Position numbers and translations under genes: made by a program. The notes under the pieces were generated by a model. That model saw nothing but the letters and a program-made list of their open reading frames with translations. It had not been told where the DNA came from and ran no database searches. Below are positions 9,423-58,782 of a stretch of 64,000 nucleotides of DNA, one piece after another; position 1 is the stretch's first letter, and each line of letters starts with the position of its first letter. The DNA comes from Verrucomicrobiales bacterium (GTDB lineage Bacteria; Verrucomicrobiota; Verrucomicrobiia; Limisphaerales; UBA9464): assembly GCA_027488845.1 (NCBI GenBank), contig JAIYBC010000068.1, positions 1 to 64,000 of the forward strand, given 5' to 3'.

Positions 9423-9481
9423 CCGTCCGGTTGCCGGCGAACCGCTTGCCCAAACCCCGCCGGCGCGGAGAGGCTTCCGCG

Positions 9482-10357
9482 ATGAAGTCCCGGCTTCGGA
9501 ACCTCGCCCCCTTCCTGCGCCTGTTGGCGGCGATCCCGCTTCTCCTCGCGTTCGCGGACGTGTGCGTCCTGGGTGGCGAGCGGCGGATTGAACTGGCCGA
9601 TGGCCTGAACGGTGCGTGGAGGATGCCCGAGGCGTCCTGGGACGGCAGGACGATGCTGTTGCTCCATGGTTTCGCCGACGACATGGACGGCGCCGGCAAC
9701 CTTCAGAAGCGCCTTGCCGAGGCGCTTTCGTCCGCGGGCATCGCGAGCTTCCGGATCAACTTCCGCGGCGAAGGCGACCGGTTTCGGACGAATCTCCTGT
9801 CAACCTTCCACGGCCGCGTCGCGGACACCACCAACGTCCTCGAATGGGTCCGGTCGCAGGCCGGCGTCGACGTGAGGCGAATCGGGGTGATGGGATGGAG
9901 CCTGGGTGGCGCCACGGCGGCCGGTGCGGCGGCAGTCGTCCCGGACCGGATCCGTTGCATGGTGCTGTGGTCCTCGGCCGGAGGGGACCTGCACGAGGGA
10001 TTCACCCGGGGTGATTTCGCGGCGACGTTCGAGCAGGCGGCCCGCGAAGGGCAGGGGCGTCTGGAGATTCCCGGTTGGAAGACGGTGACCCTGCGGCGTG
10101 GGTTCTTCGAAAGCTTCCGTGGACGGGTCGTGGAGGAGGACCTGCGCCGGTACACCGGGGCGTTTCTCTCGGTCCGCGGCACCGAGGACTACCTTCCGGC
10201 GCGGGAAGCGGAGTTCCTGAAGGCGGTGCAGGGGCAGCCGCGCGAGGCCGTCTCGATCGGCGGCGCGGACCATGTCTTCAACGTGTTCCAACCGGGAAGC
10301 CCGATCCCGGACCGTGTGTTGACCCTCACCGTCGACTGGTTGAGGCGCGTGCTCTGA
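9482..10357 (+). CDS. exported alpha/beta hydrolase
   Basis: A 291-residue protein starting at the ATG at 9482, with GGAGAGG eight bases upstream and a signal-like helix in residues 8-30. The alpha/beta-hydrolase hallmarks are in order: an oxyanion HGFADD segment, the nucleophile elbow GWSLGG (Ser), the acid in RGTEDYLPA (Asp) and the catalytic His in GGADHVF. Likely an esterase or acyl hydrolase in the periplasm or anchored in the membrane; substrate unknown. Convergent with the bestrophin gene, and the junction holds a long imperfect inverted repeat. Confidence 0.8.
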   Translation: MKSRLRNLAPFLRLLAAIPLLLAFADVCVLGGERRIELADGLNGAWRMPEASWDGRTMLLLHGFADDMDGAGNLQKRLAEALSSAGIASFRINFRGEGDRFRTNLLSTFHGRVADTTNVLEWVRSQAGVDVRRIGVMGWSLGGATAAGAAAVVPDRIRCMVLWSSAGGDLHEGFTRGDFAATFEQAAREGQGRLEIPGWKTVTLRRGFFESFRGRVVEEDLRRYTGAFLSVRGTEDYLPAREAEFLKAVQGQPREAVSIGGADHVFNVFQPGSPIPDRVLTLTVDWLRRVL

Positions 10358-10373: not shown

Positions 10374-10511
10374 TTCACGCAGAATCGCCAAGCCGCAAAC
10401 GAGGAACCGGATCCGGAACCGGAGAGGTGACCATCCGGCGGGTTCGGCACTGGCGCAGAGGGAACCTCAGGTTCCTCCCTTTCCGCTCGCGGTTTGGCGC
10501 CTTGGCGTGAA
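10374..10511. repeat. long imperfect inverted repeat at a convergent junction
   Basis: The left arm (10374-10408) starts TTCACGC, continues through CGCCAAGCCGCAAACG and ends GAGGAACC. The right arm (10470-10511) starts GGTTCCTCC and ends GGCGCCTTGGCGTGAA. The reverse complement of the right arm matches the left in the order TTCACGC, CGCCAA, CCGC, GGAACC, with gaps. A transcript from either strand could fold into a large hairpin between the converging hydrolase and bestrophin genes. Related copies are at 43094-43192 and 57378-57505. Confidence 0.65.
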
Positions 10512-10528: not shown

Positions 10529-11401
10529 TCAGTCGGCGAGGATCTCCTCGACGGAGCGTTGGACGGTGTCGGTGATCGCCTCGAGCGGCAGGTCGTTGGC
10601 GTCCTTGCCGAAGGGGTCCTCGATCTCCTCCGCGATCAGTTCGAGGCTCGCGAGGACGTAGAACACGATCCCGACCACGGGGACGACCCAGTAGCCCAGC
10701 GAGAACACGTAGGCGAAGGGCATGGTCATGACGTACAGGAAGATGAACTTCTTGAGGAAGACCGAGTAGGAGTAGGGGATGGGAGACTTGCGGATCCGCT
10801 CGCAGGCGCCCGCGGCGTCGGTGTAGGCGACCAATTCGGATTGGAGTCCCAGCAGGTGTTCCGGCCTCAGCACGCCCTTGCGTTCCAAGGCGTAGAGACG
10901 TCCGACGAGGACCTTGGCCACCTGGTTCGGGACATGGCCGCCGGGGTCGATCCCGCCGACGTGGAAGCCGTCGCACGCGTGGAGGTCCTCGGGCAGGAAC
11001 TCGCCGCGCAGGTGGTTCTTCAGGGCCCGGACCTGGTTGGGAATCATGATGCGGAAGAACCCCCGTTGGTCCGGAGCCAGGTGGGAAATCTTGATCGCGA
11101 GGTTGCGGCTGGCGTTGACCAGGGAGCCCCAGATCTTGCGGCCTTCCCACCAGCGGTCGTAGGCGGTGTTGGTGCGGAAGACCAGGAGCAGGGAGATGAC
11201 CAGGCCCAGCGTGCTGTGGATGAGGGAGAGGTTCCGGACGCGGCTGTCCGGGCCGACCTTCCAGAGCACGAGTTCGAGCCACGCCACCGCCGCCGAATAG
11301 ACGCCGATGGCGAGGATCAGCGGGAGCAGCTTCCGGAAGGTGTCCGCCTTGTGGAAGCGGAAGAGGATCGAGAACCAGTCCTTCGGGTTGTAGGCGATCA
11401 T
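10529..11401 (-). CDS. bestrophin family membrane protein
   Basis: A 290-residue protein with hydrophobic segments near residues 25-45, 60-75 and 220-250. The bestrophin signature appears as FRTNTAYDRWWEGRKIWG near residue 75, matching the bacterial YneE/bestrophin group. The C-terminal FGKDANDLPLEAITDTV is likewise typical. Bacterial bestrophins form pentameric ion channels, often cation-selective, in the inner membrane. The long upstream open frame beyond the ATG at 11401 is not coding-like. Divergent from the secreted esterase gene with 111 bases between starts. Confidence 0.9.
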   Translation of the reverse strand: MIAYNPKDWFSILFRFHKADTFRKLLPLILAIGVYSAAVAWLELVLWKVGPDSRVRNLSLIHSTLGLVISLLLVFRTNTAYDRWWEGRKIWGSLVNASRNLAIKISHLAPDQRGFFRIMIPNQVRALKNHLRGEFLPEDLHACDGFHVGGIDPGGHVPNQVAKVLVGRLYALERKGVLRPEHLLGLQSELVAYTDAAGACERIRKSPIPYSYSVFLKKFIFLYVMTMPFAYVFSLGYWVVPVVGIVFYVLASLELIAEEIEDPFGKDANDLPLEAITDTVQRSVEEILAD

Positions 11402-11512
11402 CGGCCGGGGACGTTCGTCGGGCCGGCCTTGCCGCGGCAATTCCCGAATGGCTCCCGGGCATGACGCCGCGATTGCGGATCCGGGGACGCCTGCGACGCT
11501 TTCCGGACCGCC

Positions 11513-12586
11513 ATGAACACTCCCCTCCGCATCCTGGCCTCCTGCTGGGTGATGACCGCCGTCGCCGGGGTTGTCTCCGCCCTTCCGCCCCTGCCGCCGC
11601 CGTCCGGGATCCCGTCGCCGGGACCCACGAACGGACTGCCGTACCGGCCACAACCGATCCTGCCGGGCGGCATCGTGGTCCCTCTCTGGTCCGAGGGTGC
11701 GCCGCAGCTCCGGGGGTCGCGGGTCCATGAGGCGGAGCACTACATCATGAGCCGTTCGGTGCCGGGCCGGATCGCCAGCGTCACCAACATCCACAACCCC
11801 TCGATCGAGGTGCATCTGGTGGACGGAAGCCTCAACACCGGGGCCGTGGTCATCCTCGCGGCGGGTGGCGGGCACCGGACCCTGAACGTGGGTTCCGAGG
11901 CCGCGGACCTCGTGCCCTACTTCTTCAACTACGGCGTGAACACGGTGATCCTCCGGAACCGTCTGCGCAGCGACGGCTACGAGCCGAAGACCGATGCCGT
12001 GGACGACGCGATGCAGGCGATCCGCATCGTCCGGGCCTACTCCCAGGAGTGGAGGCTGGATCCGGCGCGGATCGGGATCATGGGCTTCTCGGCCGGTGCC
12101 GAACTGGCGGCCCCGGCCGGGGTGCTGTTCGAGTCCTGGGCCGCGGAACACAAGGATTCCTCGGACCCCTTCGCCGCGCACTCCGCGCGCCCGGACTTCG
12201 TGGCCTTGGTCTATCCCGGTCCGACGCCCTTCGCCCGGGATCCGAAGCCGACGGTGCCGCGGAACGCACCGCCGTCGTTCATCATGTGCCCGGGTTCAGG
12301 GGATCGGGGACATGCGATCTGGGCCGACCAGTACTTCGACGCCTTCCTCGATGCGGGGATCCCGAACCTGGAGATGCACATCTACGGGAACGGATTCCAC
12401 CCCGGGAGCGGTTCGACCGCGGGGATCACGGACCGGAACGGAACGCCGTTGGGCAAGTGGCAGGACCGTTTCATCGAGTGGTTCCGCGACCTCGGGTTCC
12501 TCGCCAAGACCGGGACGCCGACCAAGGCCGTGCGGGACACCGAGGAGTTCCTCGCCAAGCCGCCGCCGGCTCCGAGGAAGGGGTGA
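11513..12586 (+). CDS. secreted alpha/beta hydrolase (esterase/BD-FAE-like)
   Basis: A 357-residue protein with a signal peptide (residues 1-23), then a Pro-rich linker. The catalytic domain resembles secreted esterase/lipase-type hydrolases of polysaccharide degraders. It has the oxyanion segment ILAAGGGH, the nucleophile elbow GFSAGAE near residue 190, and a catalytic His candidate in YGNGFHPGS near residue 290. Such enzymes often deacetylate xylan or related polymers, which fits the neighbouring glycoside hydrolases, but the substrate is inferred. Convergent with the GH9 gene. Confidence 0.8.
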   Translation: MNTPLRILASCWVMTAVAGVVSALPPLPPPSGIPSPGPTNGLPYRPQPILPGGIVVPLWSEGAPQLRGSRVHEAEHYIMSRSVPGRIASVTNIHNPSIEVHLVDGSLNTGAVVILAAGGGHRTLNVGSEAADLVPYFFNYGVNTVILRNRLRSDGYEPKTDAVDDAMQAIRIVRAYSQEWRLDPARIGIMGFSAGAELAAPAGVLFESWAAEHKDSSDPFAAHSARPDFVALVYPGPTPFARDPKPTVPRNAPPSFIMCPGSGDRGHAIWADQYFDAFLDAGIPNLEMHIYGNGFHPGSGSTAGITDRNGTPLGKWQDRFIEWFRDLGFLAKTGTPTKAVRDTEEFLAKPPPAPRKG

Positions 12587-41735: not shown

Positions 41736-42992
41736 TCAGGAATGGCGGTCCGGGGAGAGCATCCGGGATTCGAAGCCGGCGGGTTGGCCGGTCAGGATTC
41801 CGGCCACGATCTTCCCGGTCACCGGCGCGAGGCTGAGGCCCATCATCGCATGGCCGGTGGCCAGGGTCAGGTTGGAGCGGCAACCGGTGCGGCCGATGTA
41901 GGGCAGGCCGTCCGGTGAGCAGGGACGGAGTCCGCGCCAGGGTTGGATGCCCTCGAAGTCGGCCGGCCCGAACTCGGGGTAGTATCGGGACACGGCCTTG
42001 ATGATTCCCCGGACCCGCACCGGATCGATACCCTCGTCGAGCCCGGAGAGTTCCATCGTCCCGCCGAAGCGGAGCGAGGAACCCATCGGGGTCACCGCGA
42101 CGCGGGCTTCGGTGAAGATGGAGCAGAGGGTGGGAAGACGTCGTGGCGAGGGCAGGGTGAGGCTGTAGCCCTTGCCGGCCTGGATCGGGAGACGGAGATC
42201 CAGCTTCGCCGCGGTGGCCGGCGACCAGGAACCGCCGCACAGGAGGAACTCGTCGCCGGCGACCTCGCCGTTGGTCGTGATGACCCGCTCGATGCGTTGT
42301 CCCGAGGACTTCCAGTCCAACGCCTCGCTGGACCAAAGGAACCGGGCGCCGAGCCGGTCGAGTTCCCGCTTGAGTCCACCCATGAAGCGGTCGGGGCTGA
42401 GATGGCAGTCGAGCGGGTAGTGGACCGCGCCGGCGATGTCCATGCGGACACCGGGCTCCAGGGCGGCGGCGGCGGCGGGATCGAGGACGTCGGCGGGGAT
42501 CCCGAGCTTGCGGGCCTGTTCGGCGCCCTTCGCCTCCTCCTCGAGGCCGTGGGGCGTCCGGCAGAGCATCAGCAGTCCCTTGCGGACGAGGCCGAAGTCG
42601 TTGCCGGGGAGTTCGGCCAACTCCTCGAAGGCGGAACGGCTCGCGAGGCTGAGGTCACGGATCAACGGCGCCGAAGCCTGGACGTGCGCCGCGGTCGAGG
42701 AACGCCAGAACCGGTAGGCCCAGGCGATCAGCGAGGCGTCGAGGCGGGGACGGATGTAGAACGGGGACTCGGGGTTCCACATCCACTTCAACCCGAGGGC
42801 CACCATGCCGGGAGCGGCGAGCGGCACGAAATGGCTCGGCACGATCATGCCGGCGTTGCCGAAGGAACAGCCGTCGCGCGACTCGGGGTTGCGGTCGACG
42901 ACCGTGACCTGGAGCCCGGTCTTGGCGCAATAGTAGGCGCAACTCAGTCCGATGACCCCGCCCCCGACGATGACGACATGCTGCTGCTTCAC
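41736..42992 (-). CDS. FAD-dependent amino-acid dehydrogenase (DadA-like)
   Basis: A 418-residue flavoprotein of the DAO superfamily. The FAD-binding motif VVIVGGGVIGLSCAYYCAKT is at residues 6-25. DadA-like features are DGCSFGNAGMIVPSHFVPLA near 45 and the C-terminal GLRPCSPDGLPYIGRT and TGHAMMGLSLAPVTGK. It probably oxidises D-amino acids or proline-type substrates at the membrane. The start is the GTG at 42992 (peptide MKQQHVVIVGGG); ATG-initiated extensions lack family sequence. The gap upstream carries an inverted repeat of the intergenic family. Confidence 0.9.
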   Translation of the reverse strand: MKQQHVVIVGGGVIGLSCAYYCAKTGLQVTVVDRNPESRDGCSFGNAGMIVPSHFVPLAAPGMVALGLKWMWNPESPFYIRPRLDASLIAWAYRFWRSSTAAHVQASAPLIRDLSLASRSAFEELAELPGNDFGLVRKGLLMLCRTPHGLEEEAKGAEQARKLGIPADVLDPAAAAALEPGVRMDIAGAVHYPLDCHLSPDRFMGGLKRELDRLGARFLWSSEALDWKSSGQRIERVITTNGEVAGDEFLLCGGSWSPATAAKLDLRLPIQAGKGYSLTLPSPRRLPTLCSIFTEARVAVTPMGSSLRFGGTMELSGLDEGIDPVRVRGIIKAVSRYYPEFGPADFEGIQPWRGLRPCSPDGLPYIGRTGCRSNLTLATGHAMMGLSLAPVTGKIVAGILTGQPAGFESRMLSPDRHS

Positions 42993-43093
42993 AGTGTGGA
43001 AGGAGGTTCCACCGGGGTCGCGGGAAGGTCTTGCATGGAATCCCGGTGCATCCGGAAAAGGCGGCACACCGGCTCAGGAACGAAGACCGACCT

Positions 43094-43192
43094 CACGCAA
43101 ATTCGCAAAGACGCCAACGGTGCGGAGACTCGTTCCTGAAGGGCGCTACGGTGGCTTCGTCCCACTCCAAGGCGTCTTTGCGGTTTCGCGTG
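43094..43192. repeat. intergenic inverted repeat with near-identical 22-bp arms
   Basis: The left arm (43094-43115) begins CACGCAAATTCGCAAAGACG. The right arm (43171-43192), reverse-complemented, begins CACGCGAAACCGCAAAGACG. They match at 19 of 22 positions with a 55-base loop. It lies in the gap between the haem-domain gene and the DadA-like gene, both on the minus strand. It is the clearest member of the family also at 10374-10511 and 57378-57505. Confidence 0.7.
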
Positions 43193-43237
43193 CCGATCGC
43201 TTCTGCATCGGCTGCTCGGACGCCAGGCCGACGGAAT

Positions 43238-43290: not shown

Positions 43291-45819
43291 TCAGCGTTTC
43301 GCGGTGGCCTGGCCACCGGAGAGCAGGTAGGCCAGCAGATCGAGGATCTCGTCCTTCTGGAGCGTGTTCAGCAGGCCTTCCGGCATCGGTGAGACCTTGG
43401 AGTTCTCGATGCTTTCGATGTCCTTGCGGTTCACGTTGGTGAAGCCGTTGGGGTCGAACATGTCGGTCATCATCATGATGCCGTCGCCGTTGAGGTTGGC
43501 GACGCGGCCGATCACGGTGCCGCCATCCTTCTTGGTGATGACCACCTGGCCGTACTGGTCGCTGATCTCCTTGCCGGGATCGACGATGGACTCGAGCAGG
43601 TCATGGGGGCTGAAGCGGCCGGAGACGCCGGTGAGGTCGGGTCCGACGGCGCCGCCTTCGGTGGCGAAGCGGTGGCAGTTGAAGCATCCCACCGCGCCGA
43701 AAAGGGAGCGTCCGCGCTCGAGGTTGCGTCCGGAGCGGAGGCTCTTGGCGAGCGAGCCGTCGAAGTCCGCCATGGCCCATTCCTTCACCGTGGCCCGGCC
43801 GGCGAGCAGGTTCTCCAGGACGTTGCGCTTGGGCGGTTGGGCGTTGAGGACGTCGGCGAGCTGGGTCTTCTCGGAGGCCGAGAGGGTGGCGACGGCGTCG
43901 TTCTTGATGTCGCGCAGGAAGCCCGAGAGCGAGGAGCCGCCGCGGAAGTTGGCGGCCTTGAGGAACCAGGCGAAGTAGGCGCGCCGCTGTTCCAGGGTCC
44001 AACCGGACTTCAACATCCGGAGCGCGCGGGCGAGGTCCAGCTGTTCTTCCTGGGAAGGCGCCGAGGCGAGGGCGGCGGAGAGCTTGCCGGCGGCCGAAGG
44101 CGTCTCGAGATAGACCAGCATCGGGGCCAGCTCCGCGTTGAGGAAGCGGTTCTTCGAGGGGAACAGCGGTTCGAACTTCCTTCCGAGCGCCGCGACCGTG
44201 GCCGCGTCCGGGCGACCGAGACGGGTCATGGCGAGGCTGTAGGCGCGGAGCAGGTCCAGCTGCTGACGGGTGTCGAGGCGGTTCCAGTCGATGCGATCGA
44301 GGGCGGCGAGCAGACGCGGCTGCAGGGTGGCGTCCGGGGACGGGTCGGTCGGCTTGCGATGCGGGGCGTCCTTGCCGCTGACGCGGGCGAGGGCCATCGC
44401 GGACTGGATGAGGCGGTCGGGGTTGGACTCGGACAGCGCGCGGTCGGTCCAGGCCGACGGCGCCTGCCATTCGAGGGCCACCCGGGCCGCGAAACGGAGT
44501 GCGCGATCCTTGCTGCCAAGCGCCTTCCAAACGGTGTCGAGGTTGGACTTGGAAGGGCTGTCGACGAAGCGGCCATGGAGCGCCTCGAGCTCGCGGCGGG
44601 CGGCAAGCGCGGTGTTGCGGCGCTTGTTGGGGACGACCGGGGCGGTGGACTCGGTGCCGGTGTAGGTCACCCGGTACAGCGCGGACTGGGTGCGGCGTCC
44701 GCCGATGGCGAAGTACATCGCGCCGTCGTTGTGGACGACGATGTCGGTCAGGGGCAGCGGGGAGCCGGAGATGAACTCCTCGCGGGTTCCGGTGTAGCCG
44801 GCGCCGTCCTGCTTCAGGTGGACGGCGTAGAGCTTGCCGTAGCTCCAGTCGTTGATGAAGAGGGCGTCCTGGTATTTGGCGGGGAACTTCGCGCCGTAGC
44901 CGAACGTGACGCCGGTCGGGGAGCCCGGGCCGATGTCGACGACCGAGCCGACGCTGTCGGCGTAGTAGGCGGGCCACTTGCCGGCGCCGCTGCGCCAGCC
45001 GTACTCGCCGCCGCTGACGACGTGGTTCACGCGGGTCGGACGGTACCACGGGGTGTTCATGTCCCACTCCATGTCGGCGTCGTAGGTGAAGAGCTCGCCG
45101 TCGCGGTTGTAGGCGGCGTCGTACTCGTTGCGGAATCCGGTCGCGACGAGGTCCCACTGCTTGCCGTCGGGATCCGTCCGGGCGATCCAGCCGCCCGGCG
45201 CGAGCACGCCCTTCATGAAGCCGTTGCCGTCCCAGAGCCGCTGGATGAGATGATCCTCACCCCAGATCGGCCGCATGTGCGTGGAGGCCATCTCGGTGAG
45301 GCGGGTCTGGTTCCCGATCACCAGCGTGAGGGACTTCTTGTCCGGAGACAGGAGTATCGCGTGGGGACCGTGCTCACCGCCGCCGTCGAGCTTGCGGAGC
45401 AGTTCGACGGAATCGAAGCGGTCGTCGCCGTCCGTGTCGCGGACGCGGTAGAATCCGCGGCCCTGGAGCGTCTCCTCGTTGACCATCACGTAGAGGCTGT
45501 CGAAGGCGTAGAGCAGGCCGTGTGCGCCGCCGATCTTCAGGTCGATGTTCTCTATGGCGGGTTCCGCGGTCGTTCCGACGGCGGGGAGGGTGAGGCGGTA
45601 GAGCTTGCCGTACTGGTCCGAGACGATGAGGCGACCCTTCGGATCGGAGCACATCGAGACCCAGGAACCCTTCTGTTCCTTGGGCACGGTGTAGAGGAGT
45701 TCGGCCTTGAAACCGGACGCGATCTTCAGCGCATTGACCGGGGTGGCGCCTTGGCCGAGGGCGGCGATGGAGGCCATGGCGCCGAGGGCGGCGGACCAGA
45801 CGACGTGACGGGGGGACAT
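43291..45819 (-). CDS. secreted propeller/HEAT protein with Verrucomicrobium-type haem domain
   Basis: An 842-residue exported protein with a signal peptide (residues 1-24). An N-terminal NHL/sorbosone-dehydrogenase-like propeller (about 25-430) has repeats such as DPKGRLIVSDQYGKLYRL and WDGNGFMKGVLAPGGWIART. A helical HEAT-like region follows (430-710). The C-terminal putative haem domain (TIGR02603-type) holds the c-type motif CFNCH, then SIVDPGKEISDQYGQVVITK and the closing MPEGLLNTLQKDEILDLLAY. Such proteins are abundant in PVC bacteria and probably act in periplasmic electron transfer or sugar oxidation; no substrate is assigned. Start chosen at the ATG at 45819. Confidence 0.88.
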   Translation of the reverse strand: MSPRHVVWSAALGAMASIAALGQGATPVNALKIASGFKAELLYTVPKEQKGSWVSMCSDPKGRLIVSDQYGKLYRLTLPAVGTTAEPAIENIDLKIGGAHGLLYAFDSLYVMVNEETLQGRGFYRVRDTDGDDRFDSVELLRKLDGGGEHGPHAILLSPDKKSLTLVIGNQTRLTEMASTHMRPIWGEDHLIQRLWDGNGFMKGVLAPGGWIARTDPDGKQWDLVATGFRNEYDAAYNRDGELFTYDADMEWDMNTPWYRPTRVNHVVSGGEYGWRSGAGKWPAYYADSVGSVVDIGPGSPTGVTFGYGAKFPAKYQDALFINDWSYGKLYAVHLKQDGAGYTGTREEFISGSPLPLTDIVVHNDGAMYFAIGGRRTQSALYRVTYTGTESTAPVVPNKRRNTALAARRELEALHGRFVDSPSKSNLDTVWKALGSKDRALRFAARVALEWQAPSAWTDRALSESNPDRLIQSAMALARVSGKDAPHRKPTDPSPDATLQPRLLAALDRIDWNRLDTRQQLDLLRAYSLAMTRLGRPDAATVAALGRKFEPLFPSKNRFLNAELAPMLVYLETPSAAGKLSAALASAPSQEEQLDLARALRMLKSGWTLEQRRAYFAWFLKAANFRGGSSLSGFLRDIKNDAVATLSASEKTQLADVLNAQPPKRNVLENLLAGRATVKEWAMADFDGSLAKSLRSGRNLERGRSLFGAVGCFNCHRFATEGGAVGPDLTGVSGRFSPHDLLESIVDPGKEISDQYGQVVITKKDGGTVIGRVANLNGDGIMMMTDMFDPNGFTNVNRKDIESIENSKVSPMPEGLLNTLQKDEILDLLAYLLSGGQATAKR

Positions 45820-46042
45820 GCGGCGAAAGACTGTTGGAAAAGCCGACACGTCGACAAGTCCACAGGCGTTCCCCGGAGGGGATTCCGTTTTGGAAATCCC
45901 CGAACGCCCCAGGGCCGATCGACATCGGCCCGGCGAATCGTGCAACGGATGCGGAGAACCGATCGGCGGCAATCGAAGAAAAGGGACCGGCCCGCCAAGC
46001 CGCGAAGCCGCAGCGGGTCCCTCCTCGCTCCCGTGGAATGGC

Positions 46043-56091: not shown

Positions 56092-57354
56092 ATGGCCGGC
56101 CCTATGGAATGCCTCCCCGGTTTCCGCGAATTCTATCCCGAGCCGCTGCCGCACAAGGACGCCTGGTCCTGCGATGCGCGCCAGCACATCTTCGACGCCT
56201 GGAGGTCCACCGCGCGTCGCTACGGATTCCGCGAGTTCGACGGTCCGCCGTTGGAGCCGTTGGAGCTGTACACCGCCAAGTCCGGCGCCGAGATCGTCGG
56301 CCAGCTCTTCAACTTCGTCGACAAGGGCGAGCGCGCCGTCTCGATGCGGCCCGAGATGACCCCGACCGTGTCGCGCATGGTCGCGTCGTCGGAGCGGGCC
56401 TACAAGAAGCCGATCAAGTGGTTCTCCATGCCCCAGCTGTTCCGGTACGAGAAGCAGCAGAAGGGACGGCTCCGGGAGCACTTCCAGCTCAACTGCGACA
56501 TCTACGGCGAGGCCGACATCGCGGCCGACGCCGAGATCGTGGCCCTGCTGGTGGACACGCTGCGTTCCCTCGGTCTCACCGAGGAGGACTTCGTCATCCG
56601 CCTGAGCAGCCGTCAGGCCTGGCAGCGGTTCTTCGCCTCGCGCGGCGGGGATCCGGCCCACGAGTACGAGTTCTACCAGGTCATCGACAAGGTCGAGCGC
56701 GAGGATCCCGAGGTCTCGGCCAAGAAGCTCCAACCGCTGGGCATCTCGTATGACGACGTCCAGTCCTTCATCGCGGCCGCGGAACCGACGCCCGAGCTTT
56801 CGGAACTGATCCGGAACCTGGAGGCCCGCGGCCTCGGCGGCTACCTGAAGGTGGACTACTACGTGATCCGAGGACTGGCCTACTACACGGGCGTGGTCTT
56901 CGAGGCCTTCGACCGGAAGGGCGAGTTCCGGGCGATCGCCGGTGGTGGCCGCTACGACCAGTTGGTCAAGCTGTTGAGCCACGGCAAGGTGGACCTCCCG
57001 GCACTGGGCTTCGGCATGGGCGACGTCGTCCTGCTCGAGCTGCTGAAGTCCCGGGGCAAGCTCCCGAAGTTCACCGCGGGCGTGGACGTCCTGGTGATGG
57101 TCGAGGACGAGTCGCTCCGGGCGGCTTCGCTGGGTCTCGTCCAGGCGCTGCGGGAAGCGGGCCGGGTGGTCGAGTACAGCCTAACGCCGGCCAAGTCCGA
57201 CAAGCAGTTCAAGCGGGCCCTGGAGCTTGGCGCGCGGTTCACCGCGAAGATCGAGGCCGGACCGGAAGGCTCCATGACGGTGAAGGTGAAGAACCTCGCC
57301 AGCCGGGCCGAGTCGGTCGGGGATCTCGCCGCGGCCTTGGCGGCCACCGCGTGA
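56092..57354 (+). CDS. hisS: histidyl-tRNA synthetase
   Basis: A 420-residue class II aminoacyl-tRNA synthetase charging tRNA-His. Motif 2 is FRYEKQQKGRLREHFQ near residue 120, and the histidine-specific loops are LSSRQAW and GLAYYTGVVFEAFD near 260. Motif 3 lies in PALGFGMGDVVLLELL near 300. The C-terminal anticodon-binding domain (about 325-415) is present. An ATG four codons downstream (MECLPGF) is an alternative start. It converges with the GH5-like gene across an inverted repeat. Confidence 0.96.
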   Translation: MAGPMECLPGFREFYPEPLPHKDAWSCDARQHIFDAWRSTARRYGFREFDGPPLEPLELYTAKSGAEIVGQLFNFVDKGERAVSMRPEMTPTVSRMVASSERAYKKPIKWFSMPQLFRYEKQQKGRLREHFQLNCDIYGEADIAADAEIVALLVDTLRSLGLTEEDFVIRLSSRQAWQRFFASRGGDPAHEYEFYQVIDKVEREDPEVSAKKLQPLGISYDDVQSFIAAAEPTPELSELIRNLEARGLGGYLKVDYYVIRGLAYYTGVVFEAFDRKGEFRAIAGGGRYDQLVKLLSHGKVDLPALGFGMGDVVLLELLKSRGKLPKFTAGVDVLVMVEDESLRAASLGLVQALREAGRVVEYSLTPAKSDKQFKRALELGARFTAKIEAGPEGSMTVKVKNLASRAESVGDLAAALAATA

Positions 57355-57377: not shown

Positions 57378-57505
57378 GCACGCGAAGCCGCAGAACCGCA
57401 AAGAGACGGGAACGGAGGCTCGGGTACTGCGGAACCAAAGGTGGGCCCTGCAGCCATCCCGCCTCTGAATCCGATCCCCGTCTGGCGCCTTTGCGGATTG
57501 GCGTG
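57378..57505. repeat. imperfect inverted repeat at the hisS convergent junction
   Basis: The left arm (57378-57415) begins CACGCGAAGCCGCAG and ends AGACGGGAACGG. The right arm (57471-57505), reverse-complemented, begins CACGCCAATCCGCAAAGG and ends AGACGGGGATCGG. The shared order CACGC, CCGCA, AGACGGG, CGG shows it is the same family as 10374 and 43094. It separates the converging hisS and GH5-like genes. Confidence 0.6.
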
Positions 57506-57542
57506 AGGTCCCTCCTCGCGTTGATCCAGCCGATTCGCCGGA

Positions 57543-58682
57543 TCACGGCTTCGCGAGGCGCCGGTTGCGTTCGGCGACCAGTTCCAGCAGTTCGAAACGC
57601 CGGTTGGACGGCGTGATGCTCCAGTCTTCGGACTGGCCGGGATAGTCGTACACCCACACCGCCGCGAGGGGCACGCCCAGCTCTTCCATGCGGTCGAGCA
57701 TGCGGACGAAACGCGCCCTCTTCGCGGCGTCCAAGGGACCGGGAACGCCGAATTCCCCGATGAATAGCGGCTTCCGCCCGTGCCGTGACCGTTCCATGGC
57801 CATCGGAAGCCGGTCGAGGTCGGAGTCCTCGTAGAGGCGTCCGCTCAGCATCGACACGGGATCCGGATGGTCGGCGAGGAAGACCTCGGCGAACTGTTCC
57901 GGGGTGTCGCGGGTCCAGGAGCGTTCCCGTTCCTGATGCCAGGCGGAGACGCGGGGGAAGGCGTGGCCGGAGAGGATCGGCTTCCGACCGGATTCCAGTC
58001 TGTGGATCTCGGCAGCGAAGGCCTTCAGCGCGCTCCGCACCTGGGCGTGGGTGAGCTCGTCGAGGGCGGTCCGCTGCGTGGGCGTCCCGAGGTCGGGCAC
58101 CACCGGAGGGCGGTGTTCCGACGCATTGGGCAGGTCGGCTGCGAGGTTGAACTCGTTGCCGAGTTCCCAGGCCCAGATCGTCGGGTCGTCCCGGTGCCGC
58201 GCCACCATCGCCTCGACGTAGCGGCGCATCTCGCGATGGGTGCGGGAGGTCGGATCCCCCCAGGCGGAGACGGGTTCACCCACGAGGTCCGGCAGGGTTG
58301 GATGATGCCAGAACAGGCTGGGGATCAGCCCCACGCCATGTCGGCGGGCCGCCGCGAGCACGGCGTCGAACCGGGCCGTGTGTGCTTCGGGCTGCGTGCG
58401 GAACAGCGTCCAGTCCTTCGGCCAGTAGCCGCAGGCGGAGAAGCGAACGAAGGGGATCCCCAGCCGCGCCAACGGCTCGAAGAACGCATCGAGCCGGTTG
58501 GTGGCCCCGGGATCGGCCAGCGTCCGGACGAACAGGTCGTAGCCGTTGACCCCGATTGCGCGGTACGGCCGACCGTCACGGACCAACGTGCCGCGGGCAT
58601 CGACGACCGGCCCACCCTCGACGGCCAACAGTGGCCCGGGAGCGGCGAGGAAGCCCCACAGGGCCAGCAGGAGCGCTGTCAA
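57543..58682 (-). CDS. secreted GH5-like glycoside hydrolase
   Basis: A 379-residue protein if started at the TTG at 58682, which gives a good signal peptide (MTALLLALWGFLAAPG). A GTG at 58781 would add 33 residues but run through the upstream pilin terminator. The TIM barrel has the clan GH-A acid/base in WELGNEFN near residue 175 and the nucleophile in IGEFGVPG near 310. FWHHPTLPDL and the final WVYDYPGQSEDW provide aromatic subsite residues. Likely cleaves beta-mannan, beta-glucan or a related polymer; the substrate is inferred. Confidence 0.78.
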   Translation of the reverse strand: MTALLLALWGFLAAPGPLLAVEGGPVVDARGTLVRDGRPYRAIGVNGYDLFVRTLADPGATNRLDAFFEPLARLGIPFVRFSACGYWPKDWTLFRTQPEAHTARFDAVLAAARRHGVGLIPSLFWHHPTLPDLVGEPVSAWGDPTSRTHREMRRYVEAMVARHRDDPTIWAWELGNEFNLAADLPNASEHRPPVVPDLGTPTQRTALDELTHAQVRSALKAFAAEIHRLESGRKPILSGHAFPRVSAWHQERERSWTRDTPEQFAEVFLADHPDPVSMLSGRLYEDSDLDRLPMAMERSRHGRKPLFIGEFGVPGPLDAAKRARFVRMLDRMEELGVPLAAVWVYDYPGQSEDWSITPSNRRFELLELVAERNRRLAKP

Positions 58683-58731
58683 CCGATCGAAAAGGCTCCG
58701 ACCGACGTTGGGACGGTCCTGGAAACGGGAA

Positions 58732-58755
58732 CGGCCCGGACGGGTGTCCGGGCCG
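58732..58755 (-). terminator. terminator of the pilin gene
   Basis: A perfect 10-bp stem CGGCCCGGAC (58732-58741) / GTCCGGGCCG (58746-58755) with a 4-nt loop begins 28 bases past the pilin stop. On the minus strand it is followed by TTCCCGTTTCC. It separates the pilin from the glycosidase and argues against starting the latter upstream. Confidence 0.65.
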
Positions 58756-58782
58756 CTCTCGGGGTGTTGGGAAACCCTCACT

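Follow-up and report, generated by a model that had tools for sequence, protein, structure and literature searches.

Palindromic Elements and Their Flanking Genes

The window analyzed here is a 64,000-nucleotide stretch of contig JAIYBC010000068.1, from the 5.39 Mb, 69-contig genome of a Verrucomicrobiales bacterium (G000). Three of its intergenic gaps contain an inverted repeat. Copy 1 is composed of a left arm at 10,375–10,402 (plus strand), a loop at 10,403–10,482, and a right arm at 10,483–10,510 (minus strand). It begins 17 nucleotides after the end of an alpha/beta hydrolase gene (9,482–10,357, plus strand; the Pfam match was obtained on the ORF at 9,431–10,357, and the start is that of a simple gene caller), and a bestrophin-like gene (10,529–12,181, minus strand) converges on it. 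Copy 2, with arms at 43,093–43,120 (plus) and 43,166–43,193 (minus), is located between two minus-strand genes. It is downstream of the stop of a gene with a weak cytochrome c match (43,291–45,819) and upstream of a gene with a DAO oxidoreductase domain (41,736–42,992; the start is from the gene caller, and the ORF begins at 43,067). Copy 3 has its arms at 57,378–57,405 (plus) and 57,479–57,506 (minus). A HisS-like gene (ORF 56,092–57,354, plus strand) ends 23 nucleotides before it, and a GH5-like gene (ORF 57,543–58,781, minus strand) converges on it.

Inverted repeats in these gaps had been reported in an initial annotation of the window, and arms were located at each of the three, with arm blocks common to all copies. 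The best copy had been credited with 19 of 22 matched arm bases, which holds for 43,094–43,115 against 43,171–43,192 (86% of 22). Over the full arm, 20 of 28 positions are identical in copy 1, 20 of 28 in copy 2, and 18 of 28 in copy 3. Two of the three gaps are indeed convergent, as had been stated; the middle one (copy 2) is tandem. A fourth site, outside that annotation, contains a lone arm at 45,990–46,017 (plus strand), for which the arm matrix detected no partner. This arm lies in the gap after position 45,819, where the aligned contig of the relative G391 is approximately 100 bp longer.

Each arm is made of three tandem 8-nucleotide units of the type CGCnAAGn, and paired arms face each other across the loop. 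Related copies were combined into a position weight matrix, whose consensus is TCACGC[ACG]AAnnCGC[CA]AAGnCGCnAA[GC]G[GA], with fixed CGC and AAG blocks and free spacer positions. All arms in the window were placed with this matrix; the left arm of copy 1, with three octamers of this type, scores 38.5 and 36.7 in two scans. The outer edge beyond the arms is also conserved and is enriched in purines on the left side and in pyrimidines on the right. The arms can be sorted into two types, with a log-likelihood of −7963 compared to a mean of −8450 for 30 shuffles (sd 50, best −8325), and, in a smaller set, −746 compared to −768 over 100 shuffles (sd 4.9, best −756). Two distinguishable arm types indicate that the element has a left end and a right end. 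Paired elements in a 1.25 Mb sample of the genome are 89–214 bp from arm end to arm end, and the element is considered non-coding because of this length.

Copy Number and Genomic Placement

The exact arm core CACGCnAAnnCGCnAAGnCGC occurs 94 times in the whole genome and its reversed pattern not at all. The arm matrix, which was trained on this same genome, yielded 63 matches with a score of at least 18 in 1.25 Mb, compared to one in a single first-order resampled control. With a looser 16-mer and three mismatches allowed, the window gave only 12 matches; shuffles averaged 5.7, and 1 of 100 reached 12. An early genome scan scored 40 of 91 candidates and does not constitute a count of copies.

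Elements were surveyed in six contig stretches (1.25 Mb in total) using our own simple gene caller. Among the 46 elements identified, 19 have two strong arms, five have one weak arm, and 22 have a single detectable arm. All but two are intergenic (44 of 46), with 19 in convergent, 20 in tandem, and five in divergent gaps. Counting only gaps with at least 40 nucleotides remaining once the element is removed, elements occupy 18 of the 112 convergent gaps, 4 of the 129 divergent ones, and 19 of the 337 tandem ones. Occupancy differs between convergent and divergent gaps (P 0.0006), and the tandem to divergent comparison gives P 0.34. An enrichment at gene ends, which the initial annotation had proposed as a check, is therefore present. 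In tandem gaps, 14 of 20 elements are closer to the upstream stop. No relation between element orientation and gene direction was visible in 17 copies.

A separate 103-nucleotide repeat with GGGGACACGTCTC-like sequence divides small genes elsewhere in this genome (locus L073, nucleotides 29–131, 699–801, and 1,487–1,589; contig C65, 40–41.6 kb). An octamer arm follows two of its three copies, and GGGACACGTCCC repeats are also found upstream of them.

Hairpin Potential and Pairing of the Arms

On both strands, the three window copies give more stable folds than dinucleotide shuffles, with z values from −2.89 to −4.47. Together with the convergent enrichment and the position of the tandem elements near the upstream stop, this fits bidirectional terminators or hairpins that stabilize mRNA 3' ends and are kept by selection on pairing. 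The tails of the elements are pyrimidine-rich as well (fraction 0.655 in 48 tails of this genome), and runs of at least four T occur in 33 of 162 tails of the cross-phylum set, a count in which base composition is uncontrolled. Such runs are found in only 1 of 48 tails in this genome, 3 of 110 in its relatives G398 and G391, and 3 of 36 in sphingomonads. A search of the three window gaps for terminator-like sites gave none. The element thus does not match the class of intrinsic terminators, with a GC-rich stem followed by a T-tract, and the suggestion of terminators in the initial annotation finds little T-tract support. Nearly half of the surveyed elements, those with one detectable arm only, also stand against a function in pairing.

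Covariation between arms was not observed. In 26 copies, 18.9 of 28 positions match within the element, compared to 19.6 when arms are swapped. In 78 copies (24 from G000, 35 from G398, and 19 from G391, some of them orthologous), agreement is 18.73 positions inside an element and 18.83 after swapping (P 0.79). When RNAalifold was applied to 19 copies, only the near-invariant blocks of the arms were paired, and 0 of 12 arm–arm pairs showed a double change; applied to 75 rows (three of the 78 copies were dropped because of their length), it returned no arm–arm helix. Core positions are kept in 66–78 of the 78 copies and spacers are variable. The initial annotation had stated that arm sequences vary as pairing is kept. 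This holds only in part. Pairing is kept, through the near-invariant CGC and AAG blocks; the variable positions pair no better than those of swapped arms. Selection on structure, which had been suggested from that pattern, is not borne out in this genus, and copies lacking arm covariation are what the annotation itself had named as evidence against its proposal. A structured RNA under selection is not supported in this genus, where compensatory changes were not observed, although sphingomonad copies do show arm symmetry (see below). No Rfam match at the gathering score was found in the window and 15 loci. Terminators or stabilizing hairpins are on this evidence an unlikely explanation.

Distribution in Relatives and Orthologous Sites

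A covariance model of the element was built from G000, with no more than 150 candidates scored per genome and both strands counted. It gave at least 147 matches in G391 and at least 146 in G398, which, given the scoring limit and the counting of both strands, corresponds to approximately 75 copies or more in each. There are 27 matches in G393 and 0–3 in the other nine of 12 same-genus genomes, a contrast that rests on incomplete metagenome-assembled genomes (MAGs; 67–95% complete) and on a model derived from G000. Within the order, two of seven genomes have four and two model matches and five have none. Across the phylum, the exact core is patchy: it is present in 39 of 387 genomes and absent in 348. 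The reversed control has five single matches in five of the 387 genomes, so that single exact cores in phylum genomes may be due to chance.

Both arms were found in 55 of 60 loci fetched from two relatives, and the remaining five were dropped with no arm pair above the threshold. The end-to-end length is 135–138 bp in 37 of these 55 loci, a length that the covariance model itself favors. Aligned flanks place the copies mostly at the same position in G000, G391, and G398, and several orthologous sites differ in the loop or in half of the element. At the copy 1 locus, G391 preserves the left arm and a portion of the loop (the left part of the loop is common to both genomes and the right part is not), and in G398 the aligned flanks are 965 bp apart compared to 166. 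A different arm-like repeat, of the type CACAACnnAGGnTGCCnAGGnTGCGAGG, is found beside the bestrophin gene near the copy 1 position in both relatives (L102 in G398, L101 in G391). Copy 2 is present in G398 with 0 of 32 arm-core positions changed. At copy 3 (57,378–57,506), the alignments of contigs G398:C137 and G391:C481 stop in or beside the element, and G398 contigs end at this element or at 45,990, as if assemblies break at the repeat.

A flank match in another genome was obtained for 15 of 58 elements, 12 of them aligned on both sides and three on one flank only; the 43 elements with no flank match and the three with one flank are outside the orthologous-site counts. All 12 two-side-aligned elements are at least partially kept, with one poorly preserved (changes at 13 of 28 core positions). 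Most of the compared insertions are therefore old, and movement was not observed among them. No clean insertion with a target duplication was found; one filled and empty pair was identified, and it is diverged with ragged edges. Two G000 copies approximately 8 kb apart (L005 and L008) correspond to one G398 copy (L119). This is a deletion or duplication through the repeat and looks like the outcome of recombination between copies. Inversion of the loop between the arms was considered as the source of the loop differences at orthologous sites and rejected: across 22 pairs, no inverted loop scored above 12, whereas the 95% level for random pairs is 22.

Constraint on the Arm Core

Constraint was assessed by taking copies identified in one genome and comparing each to its aligned counterpart in a second genome, a site not itself chosen for the element. 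At sites with the same loop (six alignments, five loci), changes are present at 17 of 186 core, 30 of 142 spacer, 57 of 399 loop, and 83 of 768 flank positions. The core changes more slowly than the interleaved spacers (P 0.0025); the comparison with the loop gives P 0.08, and the core is not slower than the flanks. At sites with a replaced loop (six alignments), the counts are 24 of 187, 40 of 136, 155 of 342, and 125 of 884 in the same order. A first estimate from 22 pairs had given 48 of 699, 98 of 522, 373 of 1,563, and 422 of 2,553; it used only pairs detected in both genomes with replaced loops mixed in, and the contrast shrank when it was redone. The evidence for constraint on the arm core is suggestive.

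The core that is kept beside variable spacers, its slower change at orthologous copies, and the same octamers across phyla could all be expected if the arms were binding sites of a host DNA-binding protein, for example in nucleoid or chromosome organization, conserved as sequence and not as structure. A general host system would not be expected to be nearly missing from nine of 12 same-genus genomes or to lack its exact core in most of the phylum, and the core is no slower than the flanks. This explanation is considered improbable, somewhat more so than the hairpin explanation above.

Occurrence across Phyla, Nesting, and Arrays

When both arms were required of the search pattern (32 fixed bases, for which no chance matches are expected, with the loop limited to 95 nucleotides), at least 117 stretches matched in named genomes, and 82 elements at 80 loci are contained among the matches listed. 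They are found in Sphingomonas, Novosphingobium, Sphingopyxis, Thiodictyon, Panacagrimonas, Parvibaculum, Planctomycetota, Verrucomicrobiota, Bacteroidales/Prevotellaceae, Cnuella, Chloroflexota, Pyrinomonadaceae, Citrifermentans, Desulfobulbaceae, one Methanocalculus MAG, and others. The archaeal case could be explained by MAG contamination. Visual inspection shows no relationship between the loops of different groups. A fuller arm occurs 2–109 times in ten named genomes, with no match of the reversed control. Genome G083, from the phylum sample, has 191 exact arm cores and no match to the full-element pattern with a 50–80 nucleotide gap, so its arms are arranged otherwise.

Arms are also present on viral contigs, in at least 120 stretches compared to none for the reversed pattern, with the full element in four stretches. 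Many of these arms come from one sample and may belong to misassigned cellular contigs. Plasmid carriage was discounted: one sphingomonad query gave, among 72,556 records, a single weak match of 42 nucleotides. Chance similarity or a composition artifact could account for the single exact cores of some phylum genomes, given the five single matches of the reversed control. The contrasts between forward and reversed patterns in G000, on viral contigs, and in the ten named genomes make that explanation wholly implausible for the element itself.

In sphingomonads, the spacers match within the element at 92 of 115 positions compared to 83.7 when arms are swapped within the genome (P 0.002, among the matches listed), which is in favor of selection on pairing. 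The set consists of inward pairs within about 260 bp and excludes one Novosphingobium pair that is alone in its genome, one 431 bp Sphingomonas pair, outward pairs, and the archaeal arrays. With the close relative G407 removed, 18 pairs remain and P is 0.011. Across phyla, 3.18 of five positions match within the element compared to 2.40 swapped within the taxon (62 of the 82 elements), a comparison confounded by genome-level preferences. Symmetry is significant in sphingomonads, Planctomycetota, and Verrucomicrobiota. It is not significant in Thiodictyon relatives, Bacteroidales, and four copies of the type of this genus, and none is seen in Citrifermentans (five pairs).

Of 18 sphingomonad elements, four are nested and eight have at least one inner arm; in some, the inner arms belong to sister types of octamer, for example GCGCAGAG and ACGCGGAG. 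None of the 82 cross-phylum elements is nested and four have one inner arm, with loops held to 95 nucleotides or less by the pattern. Another octamer arm lies within 60 nucleotides outside the element in 11 of the 82, compared to 1 of 728 control stretches.

In Citrifermentans, copies separate the genes of a cluster that lies on one strand and includes DAHP-synthetase-family, CTP synthase, SIS-CBS, and HAD proteins. In a biosynthetic cluster of this kind, obligatory termination would have polar effects, and this placement argues against it. The alternation of genes and elements in this stretch is reminiscent of cassette arrays with attC-like recombination sites; several of the genes are core biosynthetic ones and copies elsewhere are dispersed, which makes cassette recombination very improbable. 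Within the stretch (Citrifermentans bremense, L363:6300–12500), many gaps contain an octamer element, and two contain doubled left arms 57 nucleotides apart. In the Methanocalculus MAG (G414:C8:48–557), arms in both orientations form a tight, BIME-like array.

Search for a Mobilizing Gene

The single Y1_Tnp gene of G000 has no arms near it. In the high-copy genomes, Y1_Tnp genes number one (G000), one (G398), and two (G391). None is found in Sphingomonas G406 and G409 or in G163 and G359, which bear 22–29 arms, and there are eight in each of G389 and G392, both with no model match. Other arm-bearing genomes contain five (G083), ten (G206), 14 (G068), and 16 (G317). Mobilization by a RAYT was rejected, since the number of Y1_Tnp genes does not track the element and the G000 copy has no adjacent arms. 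Histidine kinases are the only protein cluster beside elements in more than three of 80 loci (8 of 80, six members scanned); they are an ordinary abundant family and were discarded as a recurrent neighbor. No mobilizing gene was found among Y1_Tnp genes and local neighbors.

Discussion

REP and REPIN sequences (GTAG- and CGTC-tagged) are described as high-copy, mostly intergenic palindromes, often paired in opposite orientation and placed preferentially between convergent or same-direction genes (PMC3733652). The octamer element is likewise a high-copy, mostly intergenic palindrome in convergent and same-direction contexts. It differs in its ends, which are TCACGC...GCGTGA with no GTAG or CGTC tag (in the 82 cross-phylum elements, CACGC...GCGTG ends are fixed by the search pattern), in its three 8-nucleotide units per arm, in loops of about 25–300 nucleotides, and in having the same motif across phyla. 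Unlike the GTAG class, it is not associated with a Y1/RAYT-type transposase. In the same account, TIRYTs are families of terminal inverted repeats (TIRs) beside RAYT-like genes, some TIRs being dispersed in the genome, and the motif GGGGWSAS is given for some of them (PMC3733652). The octamer element shares terminal inverted repeats with these; its arm consensus does not contain GGGGWSAS, and the Y1_Tnp gene of G000 lacks nearby arms.

A search of the open-access literature returned no description of the motif or of such palindromes in these groups, and one motif string occurs there in unrelated papers only; subscription papers, figures, and supplementary tables may hold a description. MITEs and ERIC-type elements are short imperfect palindromes that are non-coding and intergenic. 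The octamer element resembles MITEs in being short, non-coding, high-copy, and bounded by terminal inverted repeats, and differs in that neither a parent transposase nor a target duplication was demonstrated among Y1_Tnp genes, local neighbors, and one filled and empty pair. Its likeness to ERIC is one of general description. Intrinsic terminators are GC-rich hairpins near gene ends; unlike these, the element has hardly any T-tract in this genus, has a conserved arm sequence, and shows no covariation.

The element is probably an interspersed palindromic repeat of the REP/ERIC/MITE kind, neither coding nor autonomous, with iteron-like arms, moved in trans and tolerated at gene 3' ends. A non-autonomous mobile repeat was one of the three guesses of the initial annotation and is the best supported of them, because of the concentration of copies in part of the genus, the polarity of the element, its nesting, and its patchy distribution across phyla. 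Slower change in the core than in the spacers is also expected from a host function and counts against this reading. The octamers may serve, like iterons, as sites recognized by a protein acting in trans to copy or move the element. Copies would then build up downstream of genes, since insertions are tolerated at such positions, and any effect of the hairpin on nearby transcripts would be secondary.

Considerably more tentative is an extension of the mobile-repeat reading, under which the elements could form a domain-wide superfamily of mobile palindromes with tandem-octamer ends (NCRCNRAG). These would be read by a widely distributed, putative 8-bp-iteron protein, would insert near or inside their own copies to give nested hairpins, and would move between phyla and into at least one archaeal lineage. 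We regard this extension as doubtful.

To our knowledge, short palindromic repeats are usually species- or genus-specific, and those studied in most depth are linked to RAYT transposases. In the present case, one octamer-periodic arm motif recurs across distant phyla and does not follow a RAYT-type enzyme. The lack of arm covariation in this genus illustrates why a hairpin at a gene end should be tested for covariation before it is described as an RNA structure. If a protein that reads the octamers exists, it would represent a new mobilizer or DNA-binding system, and the contrast within the genus, with copies in G000, G391, and G398, fewer in G393, and next to none in the other nine genomes, makes a candidate for it searchable.
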